Source: a virus. Taken from it: a DNA stretch of 27,925 nucleotides. Made by a program: the position numbers and the translations under genes. Below, one piece after another: positions 8,894 through 26,767 of this stretch. Under the pieces are notes generated by a model. The model did not search any database, was not told where the DNA came from, and saw only the letters and a program-made list of their open reading frames with translations. The stretch lies in IMG/VR virus record IMGVR_UViG_3300009314_000072, positions 1 through 27,925 of that record; one strand, 5' to 3'. Position 1 is the first letter of the stretch, and every line of letters starts with the position of its first letter.

Positions 8894-9538
8894 TCATTTC
8901 CTCCTTTTAACTGTTTTTCGTTCTGGTTCACCCAATTGCTTCACTTCTGAAAATACCCCATTATGCCTCACTTCCCAAGTCCTGTCACTTATCTCTGCTA
9001 ATGCACTATCATGGGTCACCATCAGGATCTGCAATTTCAATTCTTTGCTAATCTCCTTGACCATCTGCCCAAACTTGACAGATAAAGCTCCTGTGTACCT
9101 TCCTGGCTCATCCAAAATCAGAACATTCCGAGTCCTGGGTTTCTGCATACTCCATAAAACTATCCTCAATGCCAAGGAAGTGACATCCACCAATCCACCA
9201 CCCACATTGCCCTTCAAGTCAAATGGCTCAGAGTCATCCTGAACTATTCTCAAAAAGCACTCACTCTTGTTCCTCTTGATCTCAAAGTCACAGATGAACC
9301 TGTAATCCTTGTCAAACACAGAGTTGATGGCCATTGTAACCAGGGACTCAATCTGGTTCTTTACGTTCATCTGGGTGAGCTTGGAAGCTTCTGAGAGCAG
9401 CCATCTGGCCTTCTCGGTGTCCTCCTTTTCCTTCTTCTTCTGGCCTATGAAGATTCTCTGAGTGCCCAGTTGCTTCTGAAGGAGACTTTTCTGGGCCTTC
9501 TTGTCATCTACGAATTTCCTGATTTCGCTGATTTGCAT
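8894..9538 (-). CDS. Rad50/SbcC-like ATPase, C-terminal half
   Basis: 214 residues. It starts with a coiled-coil arm (residues 1-60) with no zinc hook, then a C-terminal ABC-type ATPase lobe: a signature-like GNVGGGLVDVTSLALRIV (110-127), Walker B NVLILDEP (138-145) and the switch histidine in LMVTHDSALAEISDR (172-186). No Walker A is present; it is in the separate gene 12284-13369. The two products probably assemble into one Rad50-type head that works with Mre11 (10971-11888) in end resection, like T4 gp46/gp47. The C terminus is basic (RKTVKRRK). Confidence 0.88.
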   Translation of the reverse strand: MQISEIRKFVDDKKAQKSLLQKQLGTQRIFIGQKKKEKEDTEKARWLLSEASKLTQMNVKNQIESLVTMAINSVFDKDYRFICDFEIKRNKSECFLRIVQDDSEPFDLKGNVGGGLVDVTSLALRIVLWSMQKPRTRNVLILDEPGRYTGALSVKFGQMVKEISKELKLQILMVTHDSALAEISDRTWEVRHNGVFSEVKQLGEPERKTVKRRK

Positions 9539-9805
9539 CTATCCTCCAATTCTCCTCTGAGGATCATTCTTTGGCCCAGCAGGTTTCTTTGCTTTCTTTT
9601 TCCAAGAATATGCTTTATTCTTCAATACTTTCAATTGAGAGCAATCAATCCACTCAAGGTCCAATTGTCCACCTTTTTCAGATAACTTTTCTGATCTTAC
9701 TCCTGCTCTGGAACAACCATTTACCCAATTGGTAATTGCTTCAACAATCCCTTTGAATCCTGTAATTTTACATTTCACTCGGTCACCCAATTCTACATTT
9801 TTCAT
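9539..9805 (-). CDS. Small SH3/KOW-like hypothetical phage protein
   Basis: 88 residues, GGAG six bases before ATG 9805. The order VELGDRVKCKITGFKGIVEA, WVNGCSRAGVRSEKL, LDLEWIDCSQLKVL follows a small beta-barrel protein of phages ('lGdkVkDkiTGFkGi.tart.wlnGC.ri.vqp..l....p...w.De.qL'). The C terminus is Lys/Arg/Pro-rich and probably disordered. It may bind nucleic acid or protein; no activity is known. Confidence 0.8.
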   Translation of the reverse strand: MKNVELGDRVKCKITGFKGIVEAITNWVNGCSRAGVRSEKLSEKGGQLDLEWIDCSQLKVLKNKAYSWKKKAKKPAGPKNDPQRRIGG

Positions 9806-9806
9806 C

Positions 9807-9965
9807 TCATACTCCTTTCAGTTTGACAAAAAAGAATTTCCTGCACTCAATACACCTATATAGATTTCTTTTGTTCTCTTCACTTGTATTCAGATACTTT
9901 ACCTCTTTGCTGCCACAAAAGGTACAAGCCTCTTTAAGCTTTGATTGTGTTTCATTCAAACTCAT
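9807..9965 (-). CDS. Zinc-ribbon protein
   Basis: 52 residues from ATG 9965, with a strong GGAGG six bases upstream inside the coiled-coil gene. CTFCGSKEV and YRCIECRKFFFV give two CxxC pairs about 24 residues apart, a textbook zinc ribbon. It overlaps the upstream gene by 14 bases and ends one base before the next ATG. It may contact nucleic acids or the recombination proteins around it; no specific function is recognised. Confidence 0.75.
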   Translation of the reverse strand: MSLNETQSKLKEACTFCGSKEVKYLNTSEENKRNLYRCIECRKFFFVKLKGV

Positions 9966-10191
9966 ATTTGGCCTCCAATGCCTCTTGCTTGGTATTCATC
10001 TCCTCCTCCACCTTTTCCCTTTCTCCCTTGATCTCAGCCAATCTCTTTTTGCCCTCTTCCACAGTATCAATACCAAAGTCCTTTTTCAGTTCCTCCTTCT
10101 TTGAATCTCGTTTCCCTTCCAATCGGCTCATGTCACTTTTGGCTTCTGATATCTGGCTTTTGATACTTTTCAGTTTGTCTTGTGTGTCCAT
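9952..10191 (-). CDS. Small coiled-coil protein
   Basis: 79 residues, GGAGG five bases before ATG 10191. Nearly the whole length is charged heptads (DKLKSIKSQISEAKSDMSRL, KKRLAEIKGEREKVEEEMNT) with a short central turn (DFGIDTVEEG), giving a helical hairpin. Being placed between the two Rad50 halves, it could supply part of an SMC-like arm, but that is inference. It could equally be an independent dimer. Confidence 0.75.
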   Translation of the reverse strand: MDTQDKLKSIKSQISEAKSDMSRLEGKRDSKKEELKKDFGIDTVEEGKKRLAEIKGEREKVEEEMNTKQEALEAKYEFE

Positions 10192-10425
10192 TTATTCCTC
10201 CACAATTTGGCCTTTAGGACCACAAGTTTTAATCCCAGGAACTTGACAAAAGGGATGTCGATAAAAAGTCCCATTTGATTTTATACCCAATATATGACCA
10301 TGATCTATACATCTACCATACTTGTCTACAGCAACTAATTGAATACAATCACCTTCTTTTATAAGAGCCAATAACACTTCTTCTTCCACTTCTTCTGTTT
10401 GATTGTAAACTTTGAAATTTGCCAT
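10192..10425 (-). CDS. Hypothetical small protein
   Basis: 77 residues, GGAGG seven bases before ATG 10425. An acidic helix (NQTEEVEEEVLLALIKEGDC) is followed by beta-like segments (IQLVAVDKYGRCIDHGHILG, FYRHPFCQVPGI). Three Cys and several His could bind metal, but the spacing is not a known motif. It lies between the metallophosphoesterase and coiled-coil genes. The family is not recognised. Confidence 0.7.
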   Translation of the reverse strand: MANFKVYNQTEEVEEEVLLALIKEGDCIQLVAVDKYGRCIDHGHILGIKSNGTFYRHPFCQVPGIKTCGPKGQIVEE

Positions 10426-10426
10426 C

Positions 10427-10978
10427 TTATTTCCTCCCTTTTATTAAATTTGGATTGTCCGGTCTTTTCTCCATTATCTCTGCAATCTCATCATAATGCA
10501 ATGGAGTGAAATTATTGTTATCCACTCCCACATCCCAACTCTTTCCTATTGGAGAAAGTGTTCCATGAGAATGCCCAAATAAATGCCAAGAGTTATGATG
10601 ACTTTTGTTCCAAGTTCTCATTGCATAATGGCATAATACTATCTTATTTTTCAATATCTTCACTTCCCTCAAAGCCCTTATTCCTACAAAATGCTTGAAT
10701 TCTCCTTTCCTCCATCCCCATTCTATTTTCAAAGAACTATTATCATGATTGCCCAAAATGAGAAATATCCTTCCATTTAACCTCTTTAAATAATTGAAAG
10801 AGAGAACCCAAGCAAAGTCACCAAGATGGTAAACCAAAGAATTGCCTTTTACCTTTTTATTCCAATTCTCTATTAAGATTTCATCCATCTCATTAATACT
10901 CTTGAATGGCCTATTGCAATGTTTTATTATATTTTTATGCCCAAAATGAGTATCTGCTGTAAAATAAATATCAACCAT
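10427..10978 (-). CDS. Metallophosphoesterase (calcineurin-like)
   Basis: 183 residues. All signature blocks are present: ADTHFGH (8-14), HLGDF, ILGNHD, VLCHYAM and HLFGHSHG, giving the two-metal site (Asp/His, Gly-Asp, Asn-His, His, Gly-His-x-His). It belongs to the small YfcE/phage phosphoesterase group rather than to Mre11. Substrate is unknown; small phage relatives are often annotated as nucleotidases or phosphatases. It overlaps the Mre11-like gene by 8 bases, placing two metallophosphoesterases side by side. Confidence 0.92.
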   Translation of the reverse strand: MVDIYFTADTHFGHKNIIKHCNRPFKSINEMDEILIENWNKKVKGNSLVYHLGDFAWVLSFNYLKRLNGRIFLILGNHDNSSLKIEWGWRKGEFKHFVGIRALREVKILKNKIVLCHYAMRTWNKSHHNSWHLFGHSHGTLSPIGKSWDVGVDNNNFTPLHYDEIAEIMEKRPDNPNLIKGRK

Positions 10979-11888
10979 TATCTTCCATTACCCTCCCTAA
11001 TATGGCTTTCACATTATCACCCACTTCCTCTCTTTCCACCAGAGCTTTCAGATTGTCCTCAAATGAATTCCCTTTTATCTCCTGATCCATTACCCCTTCT
11101 GTGAACTCCTTCATCATCTCCTCTTTCTCTTTGGCTCTCTCCAAATGCTCCCTGGAAATCACATCCTCTGCTGGCTGATGGGGAATCTCATGCCAGTCTA
11201 TTTCCTTTGACTCTGTATCGTAAATATAGAATCCTGGTTTATGCTCCATATTGTACTCTGTGGCTGCCATCCTGAGCATTGGGCCTGTATTGCAAATGAT
11301 CCTGCCTTCCCTATCCTGATGGAGAAAACGCTGATGAATATCGCCACAAAGTATGAGACTAAATTCCTTATGCTTTGACAGGAACATCCTGGCATCCCAA
11401 TAATGGTCCTGTGTTGCCCATAGCTTGGTATCCAATATTGGGGCATGGATGGCAAGGATGTTGAATGTTCCTGAATTCATCACCTCTGGGATTTCTCCTC
11501 CATAAGAGCATCCATATACCACATAACTGCCCAAATGTTCCTCTTTCCTATTCTCTACTATATTAACCAACCCGTACTTCTCTAATATCCCCAGATTTGT
11601 TCCTTCTCTATTCTCAGAATACATATACATATCGTGCTGACCATATACCCCATAAATATCAATGGCTTCTTCATAATAAGATTGAAAGAAGTCAATCACC
11701 TTGGGAAGGAGGCCCCACGATCGTGGCTTATGAAAGAAATCACCTGCCTGACAGATTACACAACCCTCTTCTAATGCATAATCAAACGCATACTTCAACT
11801 TCTCAAACTGCACCTCCACCAAATTGTCCAACCTGCAAACTGGGTTTTCCCAGGTCAAATGAATATCACTCAATAATAGGAATTTCAT
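10971..11888 (-). CDS. sbcD: Mre11/SbcD-like exonuclease subunit
   Basis: 305 residues from ATG 11888, which overlaps the previous TGA (ATGA). Motifs: LLLSDIHL (4-11), CQAGDFFH, GVYGQHDM (here with Gln where many have Asn), LAIHAPI, and LILCGDIHQRFLH. This is the Mre11 nuclease core with two metal ions. The C-terminal ~70 residues are helical and charged, suited to binding the Rad50 coiled coil. With the two Rad50-like halves it would resect DNA ends for recombination-dependent replication, as T4 gp47 does. Note the Gln in the usual GNHD block. Confidence 0.92.
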   Translation of the reverse strand: MKFLLLSDIHLTWENPVCRLDNLVEVQFEKLKYAFDYALEEGCVICQAGDFFHKPRSWGLLPKVIDFFQSYYEEAIDIYGVYGQHDMYMYSENREGTNLGILEKYGLVNIVENRKEEHLGSYVVYGCSYGGEIPEVMNSGTFNILAIHAPILDTKLWATQDHYWDARMFLSKHKEFSLILCGDIHQRFLHQDREGRIICNTGPMLRMAATEYNMEHKPGFYIYDTESKEIDWHEIPHQPAEDVISREHLERAKEKEEMMKEFTEGVMDQEIKGNSFEDNLKALVEREEVGDNVKAILGRVMEDNG

Positions 11889-12088
11889 ATTATCCTGTCC
11901 CCTTTGTTTATCTCTACTGTACACTGGAATATGTGAAGTGGTTTACGATCCATTTTATCTTTACCCAACATCTTATCAACTTCCAGGGCATACTTCATCT
12001 CATCAATATCCTCATGCACAGCAATTCTGGTGACTTCTCCCATCCTTCCATCCTTCCTTCTGACCAGTGCATAAGCTCTAAATTTCAT
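11885..12088 (-). CDS. Hypothetical small protein
   Basis: 67 residues from ATG 12088, GAGG nine bases upstream, overlapping the previous gene by 11 bases. It begins MKFRAYALVRRKDGRMGEVT and ends HIFQCTVEINKGDRII, suggesting a compact alpha/beta domain. A longer frame to 12271 exists, but its extra N terminus is the neighbouring gene read out of frame. It lies between the two Rad50/Mre11 genes. Family unknown. Confidence 0.65.
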   Translation of the reverse strand: MKFRAYALVRRKDGRMGEVTRIAVHEDIDEMKYALEVDKMLGKDKMDRKPLHIFQCTVEINKGDRII

Positions 12089-12284
12089 GTGTTTCAACCT
12101 CTGGAGCAATTCTTGGACAAAATTTATATTTACAAAGATTTCCTGATCTGGGACATAAAGAAAAATATTTTGTTGTAGTTTTCGTATACCCAGAAAGGTC
12201 TTTTTCTTCATCAAGAAAACCTTGTTGTACCATAATCTTACAATTAATTGAAAATAATTCAAAAGTTTCATTTACTTTTAACAT
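12078..12284 (-). CDS. Small Cys-rich protein
   Basis: 68 residues from the second of two ATGs (12284; the first, at 12287, is one base from the GGGAGG site). The C-terminal part has four Cys: FSLCPRSGNLCKYKFCP plus an earlier INCKIM, so a small zinc-bound or knuckle-like fold is possible. It is coupled to the end of the Rad50 N-half gene (TGATG). No family is recognised. Confidence 0.6.
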   Translation of the reverse strand: MLKVNETFELFSINCKIMVQQGFLDEEKDLSGYTKTTTKYFSLCPRSGNLCKYKFCPRIAPEVETHEI

Positions 12285-13369
12285 CATACCTCCCTTATTA
12301 TCTCTTCTATTTTCTCTGCTGAAATATCAGAATCACAGAATGGGCATTTTCCTAACTTCTCCAATTCTTCTTTATATTGCAAAATCAAACTTTCCAATTG
12401 ATCCTCATATTCAAATATCTTATTTTCATAACTTTCTAACAATCCCAATAAATCTCCAAGTTGTCTCTCTTCCCCTTTCTTCTCTTTAAATTCCTCCGCA
12501 AGAGCTTCCACCTTACCCAACTCACCTTCCAACTGAACAATTTCCATTTTACTTTCAATAGCTGATGATACATCCAAGTACTCATTTATCAATACCTCCT
12601 CATTTTCTAATTTGATCAATCTTATGATAAGGGATTCCAACTCGTTTACCCCATCTTCACACTTGAGCCATTCCTCCAAATTATCTATCTCTTTATTCAC
12701 TTCTTCATAATCATCCAATAATTCTTCCAGCCCATTTGCATCTTTGTCCAATCTGATATACTGCCCAGCCAAATCCTCAATAATGATTAATTCCTCTTCC
12801 AGATCCTTAATGTATTTCAACTCCTTGATCTGGACTTCCTTTTCCCTGGATTGGGCTTCATTCAATTTGATTTCTCTATTGAAGAAATTAACATCTGTTG
12901 TGAGGGTTGATATCCAAGTGTCTGCCTTGTCCAGTCTCATTATTTTATTCAGAAATTTTCCCACTTCCCCAGGCGTATTCCAAAGTAAAAAAGGCAAACC
13001 AATCTGTTCACTGAAATTGATTTCATCTATATTGAGAGCCTGCTTTATCTCATCTGGCACATCCTTGTTGAAACCTTTGAACTCCTGGTCATGCAATCCA
13101 TACTTCCCTTCTTTTCCCTTTTCCAACCAAACCTCAACATTTGGGTTAATAAGTTTCACCCCCACCTTTGAGTGATCCTCTTTGGAGAATTCTGGTTTTA
13201 TCTTGGCAGGATACCCCAGTGGCCTATTGAAAGCAAGCCACCCAAATCCTCTCAATAGATTCGATTTTCCGCTGTCGGGCAACCCAATCACAACATTTAC
13301 GCCTTCGTGCAATTTGAGCCTTGTCTCTTTGTGACTCTTAAAATAATTATAATATAATTCTTTTAGCAT
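12284..13369 (-). CDS. Rad50/SbcC-like ATPase, N-terminal half ending at the zinc hook
   Basis: 361 residues. Walker A GLPDSGKS is at 29-36, followed by an N-terminal ABC lobe to ~165 with ELNFSEQ-like region (INFSEQIGLPFLLW). A long charged coiled coil follows from ~165 to 340, and the protein ends 16 residues after a CPFC zinc hook (342-345). A full Rad50 would continue back down the coil to Walker B; here that half is a separate gene 2.7 kb downstream (8894-9538). The start overlaps the RuvC gene by 7 bases. The gene would act with the Mre11-like nuclease on DNA ends. Confidence 0.9.
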   Translation of the reverse strand: MLKELYYNYFKSHKETRLKLHEGVNVVIGLPDSGKSNLLRGFGWLAFNRPLGYPAKIKPEFSKEDHSKVGVKLINPNVEVWLEKGKEGKYGLHDQEFKGFNKDVPDEIKQALNIDEINFSEQIGLPFLLWNTPGEVGKFLNKIMRLDKADTWISTLTTDVNFFNREIKLNEAQSREKEVQIKELKYIKDLEEELIIIEDLAGQYIRLDKDANGLEELLDDYEEVNKEIDNLEEWLKCEDGVNELESLIIRLIKLENEEVLINEYLDVSSAIESKMEIVQLEGELGKVEALAEEFKEKKGEERQLGDLLGLLESYENKIFEYEDQLESLILQYKEELEKLGKCPFCDSDISAEKIEEIIREV

Positions 13370-14114: not shown

Positions 14115-15155
14115 CTACCTCCTTTGCTTTGAAACCCTTTTCCTTTTGTCCTTGAATGCCTGTTCAATCTCTTCCCACAAATCAATTGTCTTTTCTCGGA
14201 TCTTCCCTACCAGATCACTCTCCTCCACATATTCAATCGCCATCTCTATTCGGCTGAATTCCTTACTAACACAATCAAATTTATCAGAACAGGTCACCTC
14301 TTTATTGTACTGCAAATTCTCCCTCAGATCATCCACCCCATACCCATATACAATTGAAATAGGTGCTTCCCTTCCCTCATCATCACAAGAGCTTTTGATC
14401 ACTCTACACATGCTCCTTCTGCCAAATTTCTTTTCAGCTTTATATTTAGAGGGCATAGTATGAGTAGCTTTGAGCCATTTGTTCTTGGGATGTGGACCAA
14501 TCCTTATTCTCAATGATGACCAGTACTTTATGGCTTTCCCCCCAGGAGTATCATCACCACTTGGCCCACCAATGGTCTGATTTGAATATGCCACAATCCA
14601 ATTATTCTTCTCGATAGAAGTCTTATTTGTTCTAAAAAACTTATGAAGTAATTTGGCTTTCCGCATTCCGTATTCGTCCTTGTCTTCCATCTCCCAATCA
14701 GAGGAAAGTGAAGCAATCGAATCCTCAAAAAATCCATTGATTTCCTTGCTCTCAGGACTCCATTCCTTGAAATTATCCATAAGATCAATAACAGTATGAC
14801 TTTGGGTATAATTCTCCTCTGGGATATTTACTCCCATTATTCTGCTATACTCTTTGTCAAATCTTCGCTCCCCATCATCATAATGAACCTCTCCACCCTG
14901 CTTTAGTATTGATCCAGCATTCTCTATAAGAAGTAATGTCTTACCACAGGATGGAGGCCCAAAGTATTCCACATATATCCCTGCTGGCAGTCCACCACCT
15001 CTGACTCTACCACCTGAGATTGCCAAATCCAGTAATGTAGAGCCTGTTGATAACACCTTGTCAAATCTGCTTTGATGGAGTTTTTGAGGAGGGGCTTTCA
15101 CCCCTTCCTCAATTCCCTCTGCAAAGTGCTTGCTGTCCCTGCGTTTGGTTGTCAT
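14115..15155 (-). CDS. recA: RecA/UvsX-like recombinase
   Basis: 346 residues. STGSTLLDLAISGGRVRGGG (residues ~36-55) and GPPSCGKTLLLIENA with Walker A at 66-73 mark the RecA core. HYDDGERRFDKEYSRIMGV follows, as does a Walker-B-like DSIASLSSDWEME and an IGGPSGDDTPGGKAIKYW segment corresponding to the L2/C-terminal region. The C terminus is basic (KDKRKRVSKQRR). It would form filaments for strand exchange and recombination-dependent replication, with the gp32-like SSB and possibly the UvsY-like protein upstream. The ATG overlaps the previous stop (ATGA). Confidence 0.92.
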   Translation of the reverse strand: MTTKRRDSKHFAEGIEEGVKAPPQKLHQSRFDKVLSTGSTLLDLAISGGRVRGGGLPAGIYVEYFGPPSCGKTLLLIENAGSILKQGGEVHYDDGERRFDKEYSRIMGVNIPEENYTQSHTVIDLMDNFKEWSPESKEINGFFEDSIASLSSDWEMEDKDEYGMRKAKLLHKFFRTNKTSIEKNNWIVAYSNQTIGGPSGDDTPGGKAIKYWSSLRIRIGPHPKNKWLKATHTMPSKYKAEKKFGRRSMCRVIKSSCDDEGREAPISIVYGYGVDDLRENLQYNKEVTCSDKFDCVSKEFSRIEMAIEYVEESDLVGKIREKTIDLWEEIEQAFKDKRKRVSKQRR

Positions 15156-15595: not shown

Positions 15596-15668
15596 TTCTG
15601 ACAGTAGGAATCGAACCTACAACATATGGATTATTTATCCACCGCTCTACCAATTGAGCTATGTCTAT
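15596..15668 (-). tRNA. tRNA-like gene, degenerate (anticodon position AAT)
   Basis: The minus strand has a standard A box (TAGCTCAATTGGTAG) with a 4-bp D stem GCTC/GAGC, a T arm GTAGG-TTCGATT-CCTAC that is fully paired, and an anticodon arm GTGGA-TAAATAA-TCCAT, for a 73-nt fold. Two features are odd. Position 33 is A instead of the near-universal U, with AAT in the anticodon position (Ile AUU if functional). The acceptor stem pairs at only four or five of seven positions (GACA/TGTC). No CCA is encoded. It could be a decaying tRNA, a tRNA-like decoy, or a tRNA with a shifted anticodon. Confidence 0.6.
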
Positions 15669-19306: not shown

Positions 19307-21862
19307 TTATTTTATTTCCTCCATTTCTGCCCAGTTCCCATCTATTTCACTTTGCTCAAATTCTACTACCAAAGAAACAATGATCCAGTCCCAATGCTCC
19401 CTTATATCCTCAGTCATTACCTTTTCCATCTTCTCCATAATTATTTCTTGTTCAGTAGGAACCATATCAAACATAATTGAATCATAAATCTGGTTATTTG
19501 TAACCGATTCTAATTTCTCCTTTTTCCTCCAATCATTCAACTGAATCAAATCCCACAAAATACAATGATAAGCAGTCCCTTGTACACTTGTATTCAATAT
19601 CTTGTTCTTCTTTAAATACCCACCTCTACGAAACCCAAGGAATGATTCCACATACCCATTCCTATTATAAAATTGGATTTCTTTTTCCTGCCATTCTCTC
19701 ACTACTCCAAACCTATCCCAGAACCATTTCTCTACACTTCTTACATGAGCTTCAAAATCCTTGTAATCCTTTATTCCATTATCTCTCAAATGGTCATCTA
19801 CTAAAGTTCCATCTTCTAAACATAGTCCATCAATATCACTCCATAAATTATCAGCTACTTGCTTATACCATGATCCATAAAATTCAGGGAATACATAACC
19901 ACTCTTACTAATAAATCTTAGCTTTGTAGTCACATCTTTAGAATCAAGAAAAAATATCTCTGCTGCCACATCTCTATGCATATCAGTGGAAGGATCATTT
20001 ATATAATCCACCAAAACCGGATCATGAGAATAGCAAGCTAAAATCCTTACCTCCAAGCTCCCATAATCACCCTCTAATAATTTGTTCCCCTTACTTGGAA
20101 TTATACCTCTCCTGATAATCTTCATTGCATTTTCATCCTTCTTTGGAGCATTATAAAGATTAGGATGATCACAACTTGGCCTCCCTGTTCTGGCTATATG
20201 AAGATTCACATTAGGGTTCACTTTCCCTCTTATACACTCCCTGGTATACTGAGCGATATAAGTATTACTTAATTTCCTTAATTTTCTAAAAGCAAGTAGA
20301 TCATTTGTCAAAGGAATATCATGCTGGATTAAAGTTTCTTCATCAACAGAAGCTTGTCTCTTTTTAGCTGTCTCTTTAATTACCTTTTTGCCCAACACAT
20401 CATAGACCAATGTCCTCAAATCCTTATCAGATACCCATATCTTATCATTCCTAATTTCAATTCCTAACTCCCTGCCAATCTCCTTCTTGAATTTCTTAGC
20501 TTCCTTGCTCTGCTTCATCTCAAGAAATAAATCATTCATTTCTTTGTCTAATCTCTTTTGCTCTGACTCATAATACTTTTTATCAATTGGAATACCAGCA
20601 CTCTCCACATCCATATAAGCGAGATTTCCCTGGTGAAATAAAGTGTTTATTTTTCTTAACCAGAGGTTTCTATTTATCATTTTCTCTTGCTTCTCTCTTA
20701 GCTTTCTTTCGATCAGAGCATCCATTCCACCATATAATAATAATTTATCTAATGGAGCTTCTTCCATCTTATTGAACCCATTTTTATCCACTGAATTCTT
20801 ATATTGATTTATCTCATTATCATATCCTTCAACCCCAAAATGAATATATGCCTGGAAGTCCAATGAACAAAATTTCCTTCTACCTGCTTCAATCAAATGA
20901 GCAGTGTTCATCGTATCATGAATCCACCCTTTACATTCAGTCCCCAATACATTCCTATTCCATCCCTCCTCAAATTTGGTATTTTGAGCAGACTTCCAAA
21001 TATTCTCATCCTGCAAAACTTCAATCCACTTCTCCTTTACTCCTTCCCTGAAAGCAAAAGAATATGTCCCAGATTCAATGGATACAGCACAACTGATTAT
21101 CTTGGCTCCTCTTTTCCTGGAGTCCAAGCAATTAGTTTCATAATCATAATCCACCACCTTACTGCATCCATTCAAAATATCATCCAATAATAAATTGGTT
21201 TCTTCTTCAGTACTAATGATTCTAATTAATTTTTCCCACTCCTCAAATACAGGAGGCTCTTTATTTAGACAAGAAACGGCCCATTTCAAATCCCTATCAA
21301 ATAGATTCTCCAATCCCTCATCCTTATTATGAAGAAGCATTGATGGGTGGTAAAGTGGAATGATCCAGGCATTTGCTCTCTTATCTGGAATGCAGAGCTT
21401 TCTCCAAATCCCAATACCTGTTTCATATCCTCTACCAAAGTAAAAGGATGAAACTGCTTTTTCTCCCAACAGGAAAATGAAATCAGGTTTCAATTCCTCA
21501 ATTACTTTCATCACCCTCGGATGACAGCACCGGATCTCCTTCATTTCAGGGGTCCTATTATTTCCCTTCTCATTTGTAGGTCTGCAATTGACGGCATTTA
21601 TTTTATAGCAATCCTCATTCATTTCAATGCCATTATTCAGTAATTTGCTTTCTAACAATTGACCAGTTTGGCCCACAAATTGATCGTTTTCCAAGTCCTC
21701 ATTGTATCCTGGACCTTCGCCCAATAAAAGCAGCTTTCTTTTCCCTTTGCCATGATAGGTCATCTTGGGGGAATTGACTTCTTTGTAAAGACCACATTCA
21801 TCACACCCAGAGACTGTCTTGTCTGTTCCCCCAACTTCTTCTTTTGTAAAAAATCCTATCAT
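19307..21862 (-). CDS. Uracil-DNA glycosylase / 3'-5' exonuclease / DNA polymerase I fusion
   Basis: 851 residues. Residues ~15-200 are a family-4-like UDG: Cys20/Cys23 (GCDECGLYKEV), LGEGPGYNEDLE (47-58), NAVNCRPTNEKGNNRTP (89-105), more Cys at 112/113 for the 4Fe-4S site, and the catalytic-loop YHPSML (171-176). The 3'-5' exonuclease has D240/E242 (DYDYETN), N294-x3-E298 and Y377-x3-D381. The polymerase has motif A GDYGSLEVRI (D599), motif B LRFISKSGYVFPEFYG (~648-663) and motif C IYDSIMFD (D794). It is the replicative polymerase, expected to scan or excise uracil ahead of or behind synthesis. The 5'-3' exonuclease domain is absent. Confidence 0.93.
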   Translation of the reverse strand: MIGFFTKEEVGGTDKTVSGCDECGLYKEVNSPKMTYHGKGKRKLLLLGEGPGYNEDLENDQFVGQTGQLLESKLLNNGIEMNEDCYKINAVNCRPTNEKGNNRTPEMKEIRCCHPRVMKVIEELKPDFIFLLGEKAVSSFYFGRGYETGIGIWRKLCIPDKRANAWIIPLYHPSMLLHNKDEGLENLFDRDLKWAVSCLNKEPPVFEEWEKLIRIISTEEETNLLLDDILNGCSKVVDYDYETNCLDSRKRGAKIISCAVSIESGTYSFAFREGVKEKWIEVLQDENIWKSAQNTKFEEGWNRNVLGTECKGWIHDTMNTAHLIEAGRRKFCSLDFQAYIHFGVEGYDNEINQYKNSVDKNGFNKMEEAPLDKLLLYGGMDALIERKLREKQEKMINRNLWLRKINTLFHQGNLAYMDVESAGIPIDKKYYESEQKRLDKEMNDLFLEMKQSKEAKKFKKEIGRELGIEIRNDKIWVSDKDLRTLVYDVLGKKVIKETAKKRQASVDEETLIQHDIPLTNDLLAFRKLRKLSNTYIAQYTRECIRGKVNPNVNLHIARTGRPSCDHPNLYNAPKKDENAMKIIRRGIIPSKGNKLLEGDYGSLEVRILACYSHDPVLVDYINDPSTDMHRDVAAEIFFLDSKDVTTKLRFISKSGYVFPEFYGSWYKQVADNLWSDIDGLCLEDGTLVDDHLRDNGIKDYKDFEAHVRSVEKWFWDRFGVVREWQEKEIQFYNRNGYVESFLGFRRGGYLKKNKILNTSVQGTAYHCILWDLIQLNDWRKKEKLESVTNNQIYDSIMFDMVPTEQEIIMEKMEKVMTEDIREHWDWIIVSLVVEFEQSEIDGNWAEMEEIK

Positions 21863-22104
21863 TTGTTGTACAGATCCAATATAAATCTTATTGCCGTAGT
21901 TGCTACCTGAATAGCTTCTTGTCTCATTTCACCACTTGCATATATTGATTTAGATTCCTTTATTTTATCCCAAAGTTCATCTAATTCTTCTTTTATAACC
22001 CCATATCCTTCATGAGTAGAATGAAAATTATGATAACTTTCTTGAGCTTTTAATAATTCACTATGTATATCTAAAACAATGTCTTCAAAATCAGTTAGTT
22101 CCAT
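21859..22104 (-). CDS. MazG-like nucleotide pyrophosphohydrolase family protein
   Basis: 81 residues. The helix HEGYGVIKEELDELWDKIKE carries an EELDE block, and the second helix (MRQEAIQVATTAIRFILDL) has the E...D of a MazG-type metal site. It is a single short four-helix unit, less than a full MazG, as in many phages. A role in removing aberrant dNTPs or in ppGpp/nucleotide control is possible; some phage members are inactive. The ATG overlaps the previous gene by 14 bases and the stop overlaps the polymerase start. Confidence 0.75.
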   Translation of the reverse strand: MELTDFEDIVLDIHSELLKAQESYHNFHSTHEGYGVIKEELDELWDKIKESKSIYASGEMRQEAIQVATTAIRFILDLYNK

Positions 22105-24568
22105 TTACTATTCTCCTATTCAAACCCAAACTTCTTTTATTCTTTCTTTCTTCTTGTGCAATATAATCAACTGATACTTTGAAATATTCTGGCTTTAATT
22201 CCAATCCTAAATATTTTCTTCCTAATTCCATTGATATAACCCCAGTCGATCCTATTCCGGAAAACGGATCAAGTACTAAATCATTCTCATTTGAATACAA
22301 TTTTATAAAACGTCTTATTACTTCTAATTGCAATGGACAAATATGCTTTCCATCTTCATCACTTTTTGCCACTTTAGTATTCAACGTATCTGTTTCCCTT
22401 ATATCTGTCCAACATCCTGAAGCATAATCAATCCAATCATCAGAAGTCATCTCTCCACTTTCAAAAGCTTTTATTGGAATCTCACTTTCTCCAGGCTTTG
22501 CAAAAATTAATACATAATCATTATAACAAGGAATGCACTTTCCTGAATCTTTTTTAAACCCCCCCATAGACAATCCTGGAACATGATAAACAATGCTTTT
22601 TGCTTGTTGATTTTTCTTTATTGCTACTTCTCCTTTTGTCTGAAATCCCAAGCCATTCATAGTTTCAATTATAATTCCTCTGAAATCTCTCATTCCAATA
22701 TACCCACATTTAACTTTTAACATTGGCAATTGTGCAACATGAACACAAATCTTTCTTCCAGGTTTCATTACTTTATAAAGACGTTCCGCAAAAAATCTAT
22801 AATTTAATGTGAATTCATCATCATTCCCCACATTCCCCATATCTGCAATATCAGATGAATAAGTAAAAAGTGATGCAAATGGAGGAGAAAATATACAGAA
22901 GTCAATTGAGTTTTCTTCTGTATTCTCTAACTCATAAATATTATCCCCATTAATCAATTTATAATTATCAGTTTCTACAATATCATGACGTTCACTTTTT
23001 TTCACATATTCCACTTTGATCTCCTTATTTACAAAATCCTTTAGCTCATCCACAAGATTTCCTTTGTAAAGATTTTCCTGAAATGCAGCATCCTTTTCCC
23101 ACATATCCTTTTTTCTTAACACATTCCTATACATTGGCTCCTCAAAAGAAGTGACTGGAATATAAATCTTCACCTGTTGCTTATTCCCATATCTGTAAAC
23201 CCTTCTCAATGCTTGATAATACTGTTCATAGCTATCATTTAACCCCGAAAATATTACAACAGAGCAGTTTTGAAAGTTCATCCCAAAACCTAACAATCTG
23301 GACTTAGAAATCAAAACATCTAATTTTCCACTTTTGAAATCTTTTATTATTTCTAATCTCTTTTCCGAATTTACTTTTCCGGTAAGATTAAATACACTTC
23401 TTTCTTTTTCAATTAAAGCCCTTAGTATTTCTCCCTCAGTATCATAATTTGTCCATATTATTATTTGTTCATCTTCGTGTTTCATAACAAGATCAAATAT
23501 TAATTGGGGCTTATTCGATTCTATAAATCTTGTTTCTTCTCCATAAAGAAAACCTTTTGATATCTGACTAAATTTAGTCCTATTTGTTATCCCATCTAAT
23601 TTAGCAATCAAACCAAATGAATGATCATCTTTCAACTCTGCTATAATAGCTTGTTGTTCCAAAGTCAATTTAACAGGTTTTTCTTTTATAATAGGAGTTG
23701 GAATATCCTTTAAGTTATCTTCAAAACCATAGTTCTTTGGATCTCTTAGAAATATAGAAAACGATGCAAGATAACGATAAAAAGAATTAACAGCATGAGG
23801 TTTCAATATCCAACCTGGAGCAACATAAGTGAAAAACCTTGAAAAGAATTCCATAAATGTTCTAACTTGATCAAGAAAAAGTGCATGATTTGCATATTCT
23901 TCTCTGTCATTTGGTGCAGGAGTAGCAGTACAACATAATTTCCATTCAATTCCCTTCGATGCGTTAATCAAATTTGTCTTAATTACTCCATGCCTACTTT
24001 TCATTATAGAACTTTCATCTAATACAATAGCTCCAATCTTCCCATTAAAATCAATTGGATTTCTAAAAAGATCGTAATTGACTATTCCAATTCTATCTTT
24101 TTCATTCAACCATTTATTAAAACCAACAGAATGAATATTAATCAATTCTTTCTTATCATAAAATTTGGTTTGTTCCTCTCTTGTTTGCTCTAATATCATT
24201 AACGGGGAAACAATAAGAATTTTCATATTTTTCGGAATTAACTTTCTTACTTTTTCAATCCATTCTAAAAAACAAAAAGTTTTCCCAAGCCCACAGTCGG
24301 CAAAAATAGCATATTTCCTTTTCAATAATGCAAGCTTGACTATGAACTTCTGATAGTCAAACATTTGCTCATTGAACTCCCAATCTTCTCTTACTTTTCC
24401 ATTATTCCCAACTCCTATCATAGATAAGAACATAGAATTTACAATGAAAGAATTCCCTTTAACTTCATAAGATGGAAGTTGTTTGATCTTTAAAAACCAC
24501 TCATATTCTTTTAGTGATAAATCCTCTAATACTAATTCCGATGTATAGTCACCTTCTATCTTTTTCAT
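22091..24568 (-). CDS. SF2 (SNF2-like) helicase fused to a DNA methyltransferase
   Basis: 825 residues. The N-terminal part is a superfamily 2 ATPase: Walker A DCGLGKT (91-97), motif II DESS (184-187), motif III TATPAPND (214-221) and motifs V/VI in LGFGMNFQNCSVVIFSG then YEQYYQALRRVYRYG. The C-terminal part is a beta-class (permuted) methyltransferase: catalytic SPPF (561-564), then DPFSGIGSTG (767-776, AdoMet binding) and LGLELKPEYF. SPPF is usual for N4-cytosine enzymes, whereas N6-adenine enzymes use DPPY. The fusion suggests modification coupled to DNA translocation. It overlaps the clamp gene by 4 bases. Confidence 0.92.
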   Translation of the reverse strand: MKKIEGDYTSELVLEDLSLKEYEWFLKIKQLPSYEVKGNSFIVNSMFLSMIGVGNNGKVREDWEFNEQMFDYQKFIVKLALLKRKYAIFADCGLGKTFCFLEWIEKVRKLIPKNMKILIVSPLMILEQTREEQTKFYDKKELINIHSVGFNKWLNEKDRIGIVNYDLFRNPIDFNGKIGAIVLDESSIMKSRHGVIKTNLINASKGIEWKLCCTATPAPNDREEYANHALFLDQVRTFMEFFSRFFTYVAPGWILKPHAVNSFYRYLASFSIFLRDPKNYGFEDNLKDIPTPIIKEKPVKLTLEQQAIIAELKDDHSFGLIAKLDGITNRTKFSQISKGFLYGEETRFIESNKPQLIFDLVMKHEDEQIIIWTNYDTEGEILRALIEKERSVFNLTGKVNSEKRLEIIKDFKSGKLDVLISKSRLLGFGMNFQNCSVVIFSGLNDSYEQYYQALRRVYRYGNKQQVKIYIPVTSFEEPMYRNVLRKKDMWEKDAAFQENLYKGNLVDELKDFVNKEIKVEYVKKSERHDIVETDNYKLINGDNIYELENTEENSIDFCIFSPPFASLFTYSSDIADMGNVGNDDEFTLNYRFFAERLYKVMKPGRKICVHVAQLPMLKVKCGYIGMRDFRGIIIETMNGLGFQTKGEVAIKKNQQAKSIVYHVPGLSMGGFKKDSGKCIPCYNDYVLIFAKPGESEIPIKAFESGEMTSDDWIDYASGCWTDIRETDTLNTKVAKSDEDGKHICPLQLEVIRRFIKLYSNENDLVLDPFSGIGSTGVISMELGRKYLGLELKPEYFKVSVDYIAQEERKNKRSLGLNRRIVNGTN

Positions 24569-25692
24569 TTATCCACCAATCTTATAGGCATTAGTAATAA
24601 TTTATAATCTGCTTTACTTTTAGATAATCCAAATCCAATTTCTTTAACAATAGGTAAAAACAAAACTGGCCGCACAGGCGTATTAAATTTCATAAGTACT
24701 TTTTCAGAATCAATGTGATTTAATATTTCTAAAACATAATTCCGATTAAATCCAAATTCAATCTTTTCTCCAAAATATTCACAACTATCTAAATTAACTA
24801 TTCCATCAAATGATTCCTCAGAAACAGAAAAAGAACATTTACTATCATCTAATAACAATCTTATTTTGCATTCTTTATTTATTCTAACACTTTGCAATTT
24901 AGTTATAAATTCTTTTCTATTGAAAATAAATTCAGAACTAAATTCTTTCGGAATTACTCTTTGATAATCAGGATATTGACCTTCAACTACTCTTGAATAC
25001 AAAGATATATTATCAAAAGAAAACCCAGTAACTTCTTCCCCAAAAAATATTTTAACATTGGTTCTTATTTTCTTGCATTTCTTAACAAAGAAATCTGATA
25101 CTAATTTTGAAACTATTGTCCCTATCTCAAATTCACTTTCAAATGGATAGTATTCTGCAACCCCTAATCTATGCCCATCAGTTGCTACTACCTTAAAATT
25201 ACGATCTTTAACATCAAAATAAACTCCCATCATTGTAGGTCTTAAATACTCATCAGAAACAGCAAATGACGTTCTAAAAAGCATATCAAAAAGAATAGAG
25301 CAAGGAATTTCTAATGATTTACAATCAGAAATTTCAGGTTTTCCAGGATAATTATCTTTATCTAAACAAGAAAAATCATATTTATCATTTTCTAAAATAA
25401 TTGTAAATTTATATTCTTCCAAATCAAAATCAATATCAATAGACTTTGTTCCTTTTAAAACTTTCAACACATCAAAAGGGTTCACTATAAAACTAAACTC
25501 AGAAACATCGGATATTAAATTATTATATTTAATACAAATAGAATAATCATTCAAGTTTGTAGAAAAAACACTAAAAACCCCATCTGCATATTCTAAAAAA
25601 ACATTGCTTAAAATAGGTAAAGTAGAATTCTTAGGAGTAAAAAAACTTGCCCTTTCAAGCATTTCTATAAAATCTTTTCTGTTAATTTTCAT
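24565..25692 (-). CDS. dnaN: DNA polymerase sliding clamp (bacterial beta-clamp type)
   Basis: 375 residues, the usual beta-clamp length, enough for three domains. Diagnostic segments are NSTLPILSNVFLEY (~22-35), YLRPTMMGVYFDV, VVATDGHRLGVAEY, VEGQYPDYQRVIP and the C-terminal LLLMPIRL. It forms a ring that tethers the polymerase to DNA. It is preceded by a second, divergent clamp-like gene with two bases between them. Both clamp genes end in VDK followed by TGA. Confidence 0.93.
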   Translation of the reverse strand: MKINRKDFIEMLERASFFTPKNSTLPILSNVFLEYADGVFSVFSTNLNDYSICIKYNNLISDVSEFSFIVNPFDVLKVLKGTKSIDIDFDLEEYKFTIILENDKYDFSCLDKDNYPGKPEISDCKSLEIPCSILFDMLFRTSFAVSDEYLRPTMMGVYFDVKDRNFKVVATDGHRLGVAEYYPFESEFEIGTIVSKLVSDFFVKKCKKIRTNVKIFFGEEVTGFSFDNISLYSRVVEGQYPDYQRVIPKEFSSEFIFNRKEFITKLQSVRINKECKIRLLLDDSKCSFSVSEESFDGIVNLDSCEYFGEKIEFGFNRNYVLEILNHIDSEKVLMKFNTPVRPVLFLPIVKEIGFGLSKSKADYKLLLMPIRLVDK

Positions 25693-25693
25693 A

Positions 25694-26767
25694 TCATTTA
25701 TCCACCGTAGCTATTATGTGTTTGAAATCACCTGAATCAAAAAGCACTGAACTTCCTTTATAATAGAATGATTTGTTTTTCTCCAATACAGATTTCAAAA
25801 AGCTTGCAGAAATCATCAGTTTAAAATCTTCTGGCAAGCTGTCTTTTTCAATCTTCAATTTATCCTTAATACTTCCAAAATCCCTTTCCCCCTTAACAAC
25901 CAACTTACCCCTAAATACTTCCAAGCTAATATATGAGAAAGTGCCTAATTTCTCAAATGCCATAACATCAACTCGATCAAGAGATTTTGATAATTCATCC
26001 GGGAAACTATATTCATCACCAGAAACTTCAAAAAACTCTTTAATCTTTTCACTTGGAAATTCCCCTTCAATTAATCTTGAACTAAAAATTACATTTTCCT
26101 CATTCCTAAAATGCACCCAAGATTCATTAATTCCATATTCTTTTATGTCTTCAAATTTGATCAATTCATTCAAAGCTTCCAATGGCAAAATAAAAGAATC
26201 CATTTTCTTATCCATTTCAAACCAGGAAGCTCTATAATTATCTGAGGAAATAATATCATTTCCCCCAATGAAAAGCCCACAAAGCACCCCCAACGATACA
26301 TCAGATGATACAGAGAATAGACATTTAGAAATACCAGTTATGAAATCCTTTGGAACTTTCTTCCATTCAATAGCATCTATTCCCAAAGATTCTATCAAAG
26401 ATGTAATCTGAGATTCAATAAGATTCATTTTTAATTCTGTGATATCATCTCTTACAATTAAAGCAGAACGTGTAACTGAGACAGGAGCTCCTTCTGGAAA
26501 AGTATGCAAATTATCAGCGATGCCTGTATCACTTTTCAATTCCATTTCGATTTCATCACTTTTCATTTTTTGCAACACTTTAAAAAATTCATTGGCTTTG
26601 ATCGAACAATTGATTTCTGATTTGAATGGATAAGAAATTGATATTGTATCACTGTATGTTCTTATCCAATCCTTGTCAAATAGAAATGAATCTGCACCAG
26701 GAATCATATCTTTTCCTACTCCTGGAATGACCTGCTTTAACGCTTTTAGTAATTCTTGCTTTTTCAT
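25694..26767 (-). CDS. Divergent beta-clamp-like protein
   Basis: 357 residues. It begins MKKQELLKALKQVIPGVG and has clamp-like features: SDTISISYPFKSEINCSIKA near residue 45, SSRLIEGEFPSE (like the bacterial 'EGqYPDY' strand) and a C-terminal FLKSVLEKNKSFYYKGS then FKHIIATVDK. It lacks the 'TDGHRL' block and the 'MPMRL' C terminus of a true beta clamp. I infer a second processivity or clamp-like subunit from the order of these patterns and its position next to the canonical clamp. GGAGG lies in a 33-bp repeat over the start. Confidence 0.75.
   Translation of the reverse strand: MKKQELLKALKQVIPGVGKDMIPGADSFLFDKDWIRTYSDTISISYPFKSEINCSIKANEFFKVLQKMKSDEIEMELKSDTGIADNLHTFPEGAPVSVTRSALIVRDDITELKMNLIESQITSLIESLGIDAIEWKKVPKDFITGISKCLFSVSSDVSLGVLCGLFIGGNDIISSDNYRASWFEMDKKMDSFILPLEALNELIKFEDIKEYGINESWVHFRNEENVIFSSRLIEGEFPSEKIKEFFEVSGDEYSFPDELSKSLDRVDVMAFEKLGTFSYISLEVFRGKLVVKGERDFGSIKDKLKIEKDSLPEDFKLMISASFLKSVLEKNKSFYYKGSSVLFDSGDFKHIIATVDK

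Follow-up and report, generated by a model that had tools for sequence, protein, structure and literature searches.

Rad50 is, to our knowledge, one long protein in almost all life. The locus described here raises the question of whether it can exist permanently divided at its zinc hook, and of what then completes its arm. The locus belongs to IMG/VR record IMGVR_UViG_3300009314_000072, of which a stretch of 27,925 nt was analysed (the window). Its terminase, DNA polymerase, clamp and clamp loader genes assign it to a phage, and it is probably a fragment of a larger phage genome. The minus strand holds the main genes, and all window coordinates given below are on that strand.

Pieces of Rad50 in the window

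The Rad50 N-half is a 361-aa protein (12284..13369) with hits to AAA_23 (4.2e-8) and phrog_16465 (3.6e-26). It is composed of an N-lobe carrying the Walker A motif GLPDSGKS (aa 29-36, 13262..13285; G29, G34 and K35 unchanged across 18 relatives), a long helical arm and, at the carboxyl terminus, the zinc-hook motif CPFC (aa 342-345, 12335..12346), whose C, P and C are invariant in alignment A9. The stop codon is found 16 residues beyond CPFC. The C-half (8894..9538; phrog_15167, 3.2e-31) is a 214-aa protein made of a coil helix and a C-lobe. The latter has the ABC signature region GNVGGGLVDVTSLAL (aa 111-125, 9164..9208; G113 and R125 the same in all 20 relatives), the Walker B region (VLILDE/LILDEP, aa 138-145, 9104..9127; D143 and E144 invariant) and the H-loop TH (aa 175-176, 9011..9016; T175 and H176 invariant). 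CxxC is absent from the C-half. The original prediction, a gene with Walker A and a coil ending just past CPFC and a second gene 2.7 kb downstream with a coil, the signature and Walker B but no hook, is borne out by these features, the gap between the two genes measuring 2745 bp.

From the N-half to the C-half, this gap contains an ORF whose frame is uncertain (128 or 69 aa), an Mre11/SbcD-like nuclease of 305 aa with its ATG at 11888 (10971..11888; Metallophos 1.2e-8, SbcD-like phrog_100 9.4e-22), a second phosphoesterase (10427..10978; phrog_547, 1.3e-51), a 77-aa ORF, a 79-aa coiled-coil protein (9952..10191), a 52-aa zinc ribbon and an 88-aa ORF. Mre11, the second phosphoesterase, the zinc ribbon and three small genes had been recognised initially, a list slightly shorter than the present one; 9952-10191 had been counted merely among the small genes. 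It codes for a conserved coil protein with homologues at nearly all split loci and makes up a third component of the split Rad50. The second phosphoesterase has no relative in the other split loci searched and falls outside the conserved set. The GNHD motif of Mre11 reads GQHD in the window protein and likewise in some relatives (L009, L055). A RecA-like recombinase (14115..15155; Pfam RecA, 9.7e-23) is encoded upstream of the set. A separate 13.5 kb IMG/VR contig carries the N-half and the C-half at 100% identity, and no second Rad50-type ATPase was found within the 27.9 kb record, which may itself be a fragment.

Family profiles relate both halves to Rad50. The best PDB match of the N-half profile (18 N-halves) is Methanocaldococcus jannaschii Rad50 (3.3e-19) and that of the C-half profile (20 C-halves) is the Rad50 C-lobe chains of Pyrococcus furiosus (1.9e-13), with SMC only at 6e-7. 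The Mre11 family profile has P. furiosus Mre11 as best PDB match (2.7e-12). The AF2 model of the C-half (pLDDT 86.9) displays one long helix (aa 2-74) followed by the C-lobe. Foldseek matches it to SMC and Rad50 C-lobes, including Rad50 1f2u_B (TM 0.79 of target) and the SMC C-head 5h66_B (2e-8). The N-half model has low confidence (pLDDT 61.5) and its Foldseek match is the P. furiosus Rad50 N-lobe. The possibility that the halves are unrelated ATPases is thus contradicted by both profiles, which match Rad50 best, and by folded models that match Rad50/SMC head lobes. Identity with the SMC or RecF families was rejected, their matches being weaker than Rad50 at the sequence level; there is no family match to the SMC hinge, and the set has a CxxC at the tip and an Mre11 neighbour in place of a kleisin.

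The set combines a Rad50-homologous N-lobe with Walker A, a C-lobe with signature, Walker B and H-loop, a CxxC at the far end of the coil in the window and nearly all relatives except the Magritte type, and an Mre11/SbcD nuclease encoded alongside or, in some loci, fused. The catalytic residues of these four ATPase motifs are invariant and complement each other across separate chains. A property of Rad50/SbcC that the set lacks is the presence of lobes and arm strands on one polypeptide: the genes are separate at all split loci.

Distribution and ancestry of the split set

The split is old and conserved. Mre11, a hook-ended N-half, a coil protein of 77-96 aa and a C-half are present in nearly every relative found, and the identical cut in dozens of loci, with separate PHROG families for N and C, confirms that the break falls at the zinc hook as first proposed. 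CxxC is at the extreme carboxyl terminus of 17 of 18 aligned N-halves, and 22 distinct N-half tails stop 5-16 aa past it; Magritte-type N-halves (L014 1492-2544; L064) have no terminal CxxC. Some tails past CxxC are rich in His/Cys (15% vs 2.9%), as in CPLCEQAVAHTH (L038, L046, L058, L065), residues that might be in-cis zinc ligands; the window and several other N-halves have no Cys/His in their tails.

Bacillus phage vB_BboS-125 (NC_048735) has an N-half ending with CPLC and a short tail, a 78-aa coil protein, a C-half and Mre11, whose gene (L001 6857-7837, plus strand) is unannotated. The same N-coil-C-Mre11 order is found in Bacillus-type IMG/VR and prophage loci, including those of Brevibacillus, Paenibacillus and Sutcliffiella, while Microcystis phage Mvi-JY20 has overlapping genes ordered N-Mre11-coil-C. 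A 485 kb uncultured phage, Tunturiibacter phage Tunturi_5 and Microbacterium phage Magritte each code for N-half, C-half and Mre11, with the pieces scattered and some of them tens of kb apart. Records of phages found by way of their C-half likewise contain N-half and Mre11, even tens of kb away, and in some phages the split genes are up to ~110 kb from each other. Profile searches found no coil protein in Tunturi_5, and a scan with the cyanophage C-half gave no matches. A full-length Rad50 elsewhere in the genome, which would have spoken against the split, was found in none of the complete phages with the split set, and Bacilli carrying the set are mostly without SbcC.

The set is not confined to phages, a point beyond the original prediction. 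A stand-alone C-half was detected in 49 of 400 Bacilli genomes searched. Mre11, N-half, coil protein and C-half are all present at the 20 Bacilli loci read (L119-L138), one of them on a 722 kb plasmid; their genes overlap in most loci and the N-halves end 12-37 residues past CxxC. A common flanking gene set surrounds 16 of these 20 loci; in representatives, cinA, recA and recX precede the set and rny and a ymdB-type phosphoesterase gene follow it. In a phylum-wide sample of Bacillota the C-half was found in 66 of 399 genomes. Among 18 of these loci that were read, 14 have the four pieces, one has coil protein and C-half at a contig end, and three have a single chain. All intact Bacillota loci with an arm (34/34) have the four pieces. 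Alkaliphilus plasmid pB6464 and B. velezensis plasmid p3 also carry the four genes.

Two kinds of fusion are observed. Mre11 is joined in frame to the N-half on two megaplasmids, Aneurinibacillus NZ_CP116888 (937 aa; L137 11008-13821, minus strand) and P. polymyxa pSC2 (841 aa; L145 3037-5562, plus strand), both annotated as metallophosphoesterase. In three genomes, Mre11, N-head and C-lobe form a single chain of 684-700 aa devoid of arm and hook, with no coil gene (L157 4652-6754, minus strand; L158 3264-5318, plus strand; L159 4583-6670, minus strand). From their domain content, the latter appear to be natural arm-less Mre11-Rad50 proteins.

All four genes are under purifying selection, with dN/dS well below 1 in close relatives (C-half 0.02-0.09, N-half 0.12-0.31, Mre11 0.00-0.12, coil protein 0.01-0.21). 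Separate trees of the N-head and of the C-lobe place the split forms on one side of a single branch (SH-aLRT 96 and 98), and in a tree built from both regions together (26 split and 7 fused forms) one branch divides them with 100/100 support, although a fused relative inside the split group could have been missed because the split forms were found by mutual likeness. The only single-chain forms seen in these searches are the arm-less Mre11-N-head-C-lobe fusions.

Canonical SbcC (E<=1e-20) was detected in 2 of 40 carriers of the set vs 14 of 20 non-carriers (Fisher 2e-7, a value that overstates independence because the genomes are related), the Aneurinibacillus plasmid carrier being excluded from the count and most of the second carrier batch being defined by the C-half match alone. 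The split set seems to replace the usual SbcC in part of the Bacillota.

The coil protein and the proposed assembly of the complex

The coil protein is helical, 77-96 aa long in most loci, and encoded next to or near the C-half. Its profile gives unspecific helical matches only in the PDB and no match in 8 fused-Rad50 loci. A conserved break or turn at mid-length suggests a hairpin rather than a single straight helix. The ratio of residues after and before the hook is 0.86-1.07 in 8 fused Rad50s and 0.44-0.70 in split forms when the C-half is counted alone. Addition of the coil protein brings this ratio to 0.81-1.00 in the short-arm types (the window, at 0.91, Mvi-JY20 and two others) but leaves it at 0.59-0.72 in the long-arm types of the same comparison, or at 0.59-0.81 over the long-N types of Bacilli and of the huge phage. 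Only in short-arm types, and with the coil protein included, do the two sides of the arm come out roughly equal; the imbalance of the long-N types implies that their N-arm folds back or that the coil protein has another role.

We favour, with a probability of about 0.6, the hypothesis that the set codes for an Mre11-Rad50 (SbcCD) complex processing DNA ends, whose Rad50 is permanently divided at the zinc hook and has the coil protein as one element of its arm. The N-chain, with Walker A, the ascending arm and the CxxC tip, would associate with the C-chain, which brings a short descending helix, the signature and Walker B, to form the ATPase head on which Mre11 would dock. That the halves assemble in trans is inferred, with strong support, from the maintenance together of genes as distant as 110 kb, from the Mre11-N and Mre11-N-C fusions, and from archaeal Rad50 crystals 1f2t, 1f2u and 1ii8, whose PDB entries list N and C as distinct chains and provide a precedent. 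The coil protein would most likely supply or brace the stretch of arm leading from the tip to the C-chain. The arm would then lack a continuous covalent path and could come apart. In phages, the split complex would serve replication and recombination by processing DNA ends; in Bacilli, it would take the place of SbcCD.

A zinc hook is built from two CxxC motifs, each contributed by a different Rad50. A hook present only in the N-chain can consequently still give the usual dimer, and the CxxC tips of N-chains would join two complexes in the usual fashion. The initial proposal that a one-chain hook alters closure of the coil needs a qualification in this respect; it holds in that the chain no longer returns down the arm.

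The break itself could be an artefact, or the pieces could be joined after transcription through an intein or a frameshift, an explanation that gene overlaps in many genomic operons might invite. We consider it barely credible: Mre11 and other genes intervene between the window pieces, the identical cut recurs in independent isolates, plasmids and genomes, overlap and frame vary among loci, and the N-half stops soon past the hook in all of them. Chance, assembly error and pseudogene formation were likewise rejected in view of the second contig of 100% identity, the separate PHROG families, the dozens of loci and purifying selection. It is also very unlikely that the halves are decayed remnants or separate ATPases no longer cooperating. 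The wide spacing of the genes in some phages, up to ~110 kb, is compatible with such a loss, but purifying selection acts on them, complementary catalytic motifs are retained on separate chains, the genes constantly co-occur and some are fused with Mre11.

A more serious alternative, which we nevertheless regard as rather unlikely, is a head assembled in trans with the coil protein outside the arm, where it would assist assembly as a chaperone, regulate the complex or clamp the heads. The conserved mid-point turn and the long arms that the coil protein leaves unbalanced leave room for such a role, and its absence from the Tunturi_5 profile search points in the same direction. Against it, the coil protein has no match in the fused-Rad50 loci and its length fills the arm deficit of short-arm types. 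The strongest hint of an arm role is that the coil gene is absent from the three fused genomes where arm and hook are deleted. A place of the coil protein within the arm can be extended to a more tentative proposal, which we put somewhat below even odds: the split forms would be a distinct Mre11-Rad50 branch with a detachable arm, in which the coil protein closes the path from the hook-bearing N-chain to the C-chain and the ring, lacking covalent continuity there, can open to load or release DNA. This would be an ordinary cellular repair system in part of the Bacillota, replacing SbcCD and shared by phages and megaplasmids.

Relation to known systems

SbcCD and T4 gp46-gp47 share with the split set the ATPase motifs, the CxxC hook and an Mre11-type partner in the cluster. 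SbcC and gp46 are, however, one chain with near-equal lengths on either side of the hook, whereas the split set has three chains and occupies a separate tree branch; 3311 phage records contain relatives of the one-chain T4 gp46. Archaeal Mre11-Rad50 offers the nearest solved relatives of both halves. The separate chains of its Rad50 crystals result from an experimenter's cut that removed most of the arm, unlike the natural cut at the hook that keeps the ascending arm. SMC proteins resemble the set in that their C-heads match the C-half model, but profiles rank Rad50 far higher, and SMC has a hinge and a kleisin where the split set has a CxxC tip and an Mre11 neighbour.

PHROG 16465, 15167 and 18563 match the N-half, the C-half and most coil proteins, respectively, and are filed separately, the first as 'exonuclease', the second as 'ATPase' and the third as unknown. 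Searches of the open PMC literature turned up no account of a split Rad50 or SbcC. According to PMC7824862, nearly all jumbo phages have SbcC and SbcD; the paper also describes a split DNA polymerase III in these phages, a parallel case. In many Bacillota that seemingly have no SbcC, the recA-adjacent set has its pieces filed as hypothetical proteins or generic ATPases, and a core repair complex may consequently be unrecognised.

It has long been asked how the Rad50 hook and arm act on ATPase heads so far away from them, and the closed single chain of the arm makes this difficult to test. The split set provides a natural cut at the tip, and in some lineages arm, hook and coil gene are gone together, with head and nuclease retained. 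Split and arm-less forms are ready-made parts for probing the purpose of the arm.

The window has other gene arrangements of note. An 851-aa protein fuses a Uracil-DNA glycosylase domain to a family A DNA polymerase (19307-21862), and an 825-aa protein combines helicase domains with an N6/N4 DNA methylase (22091-24568). Two neighbouring genes code for sliding clamps (24565-25692 and 25694-26767), the second copy being divergent. A tRNA-Ile with anticodon aat (15596-15668) is found amid the replication genes.
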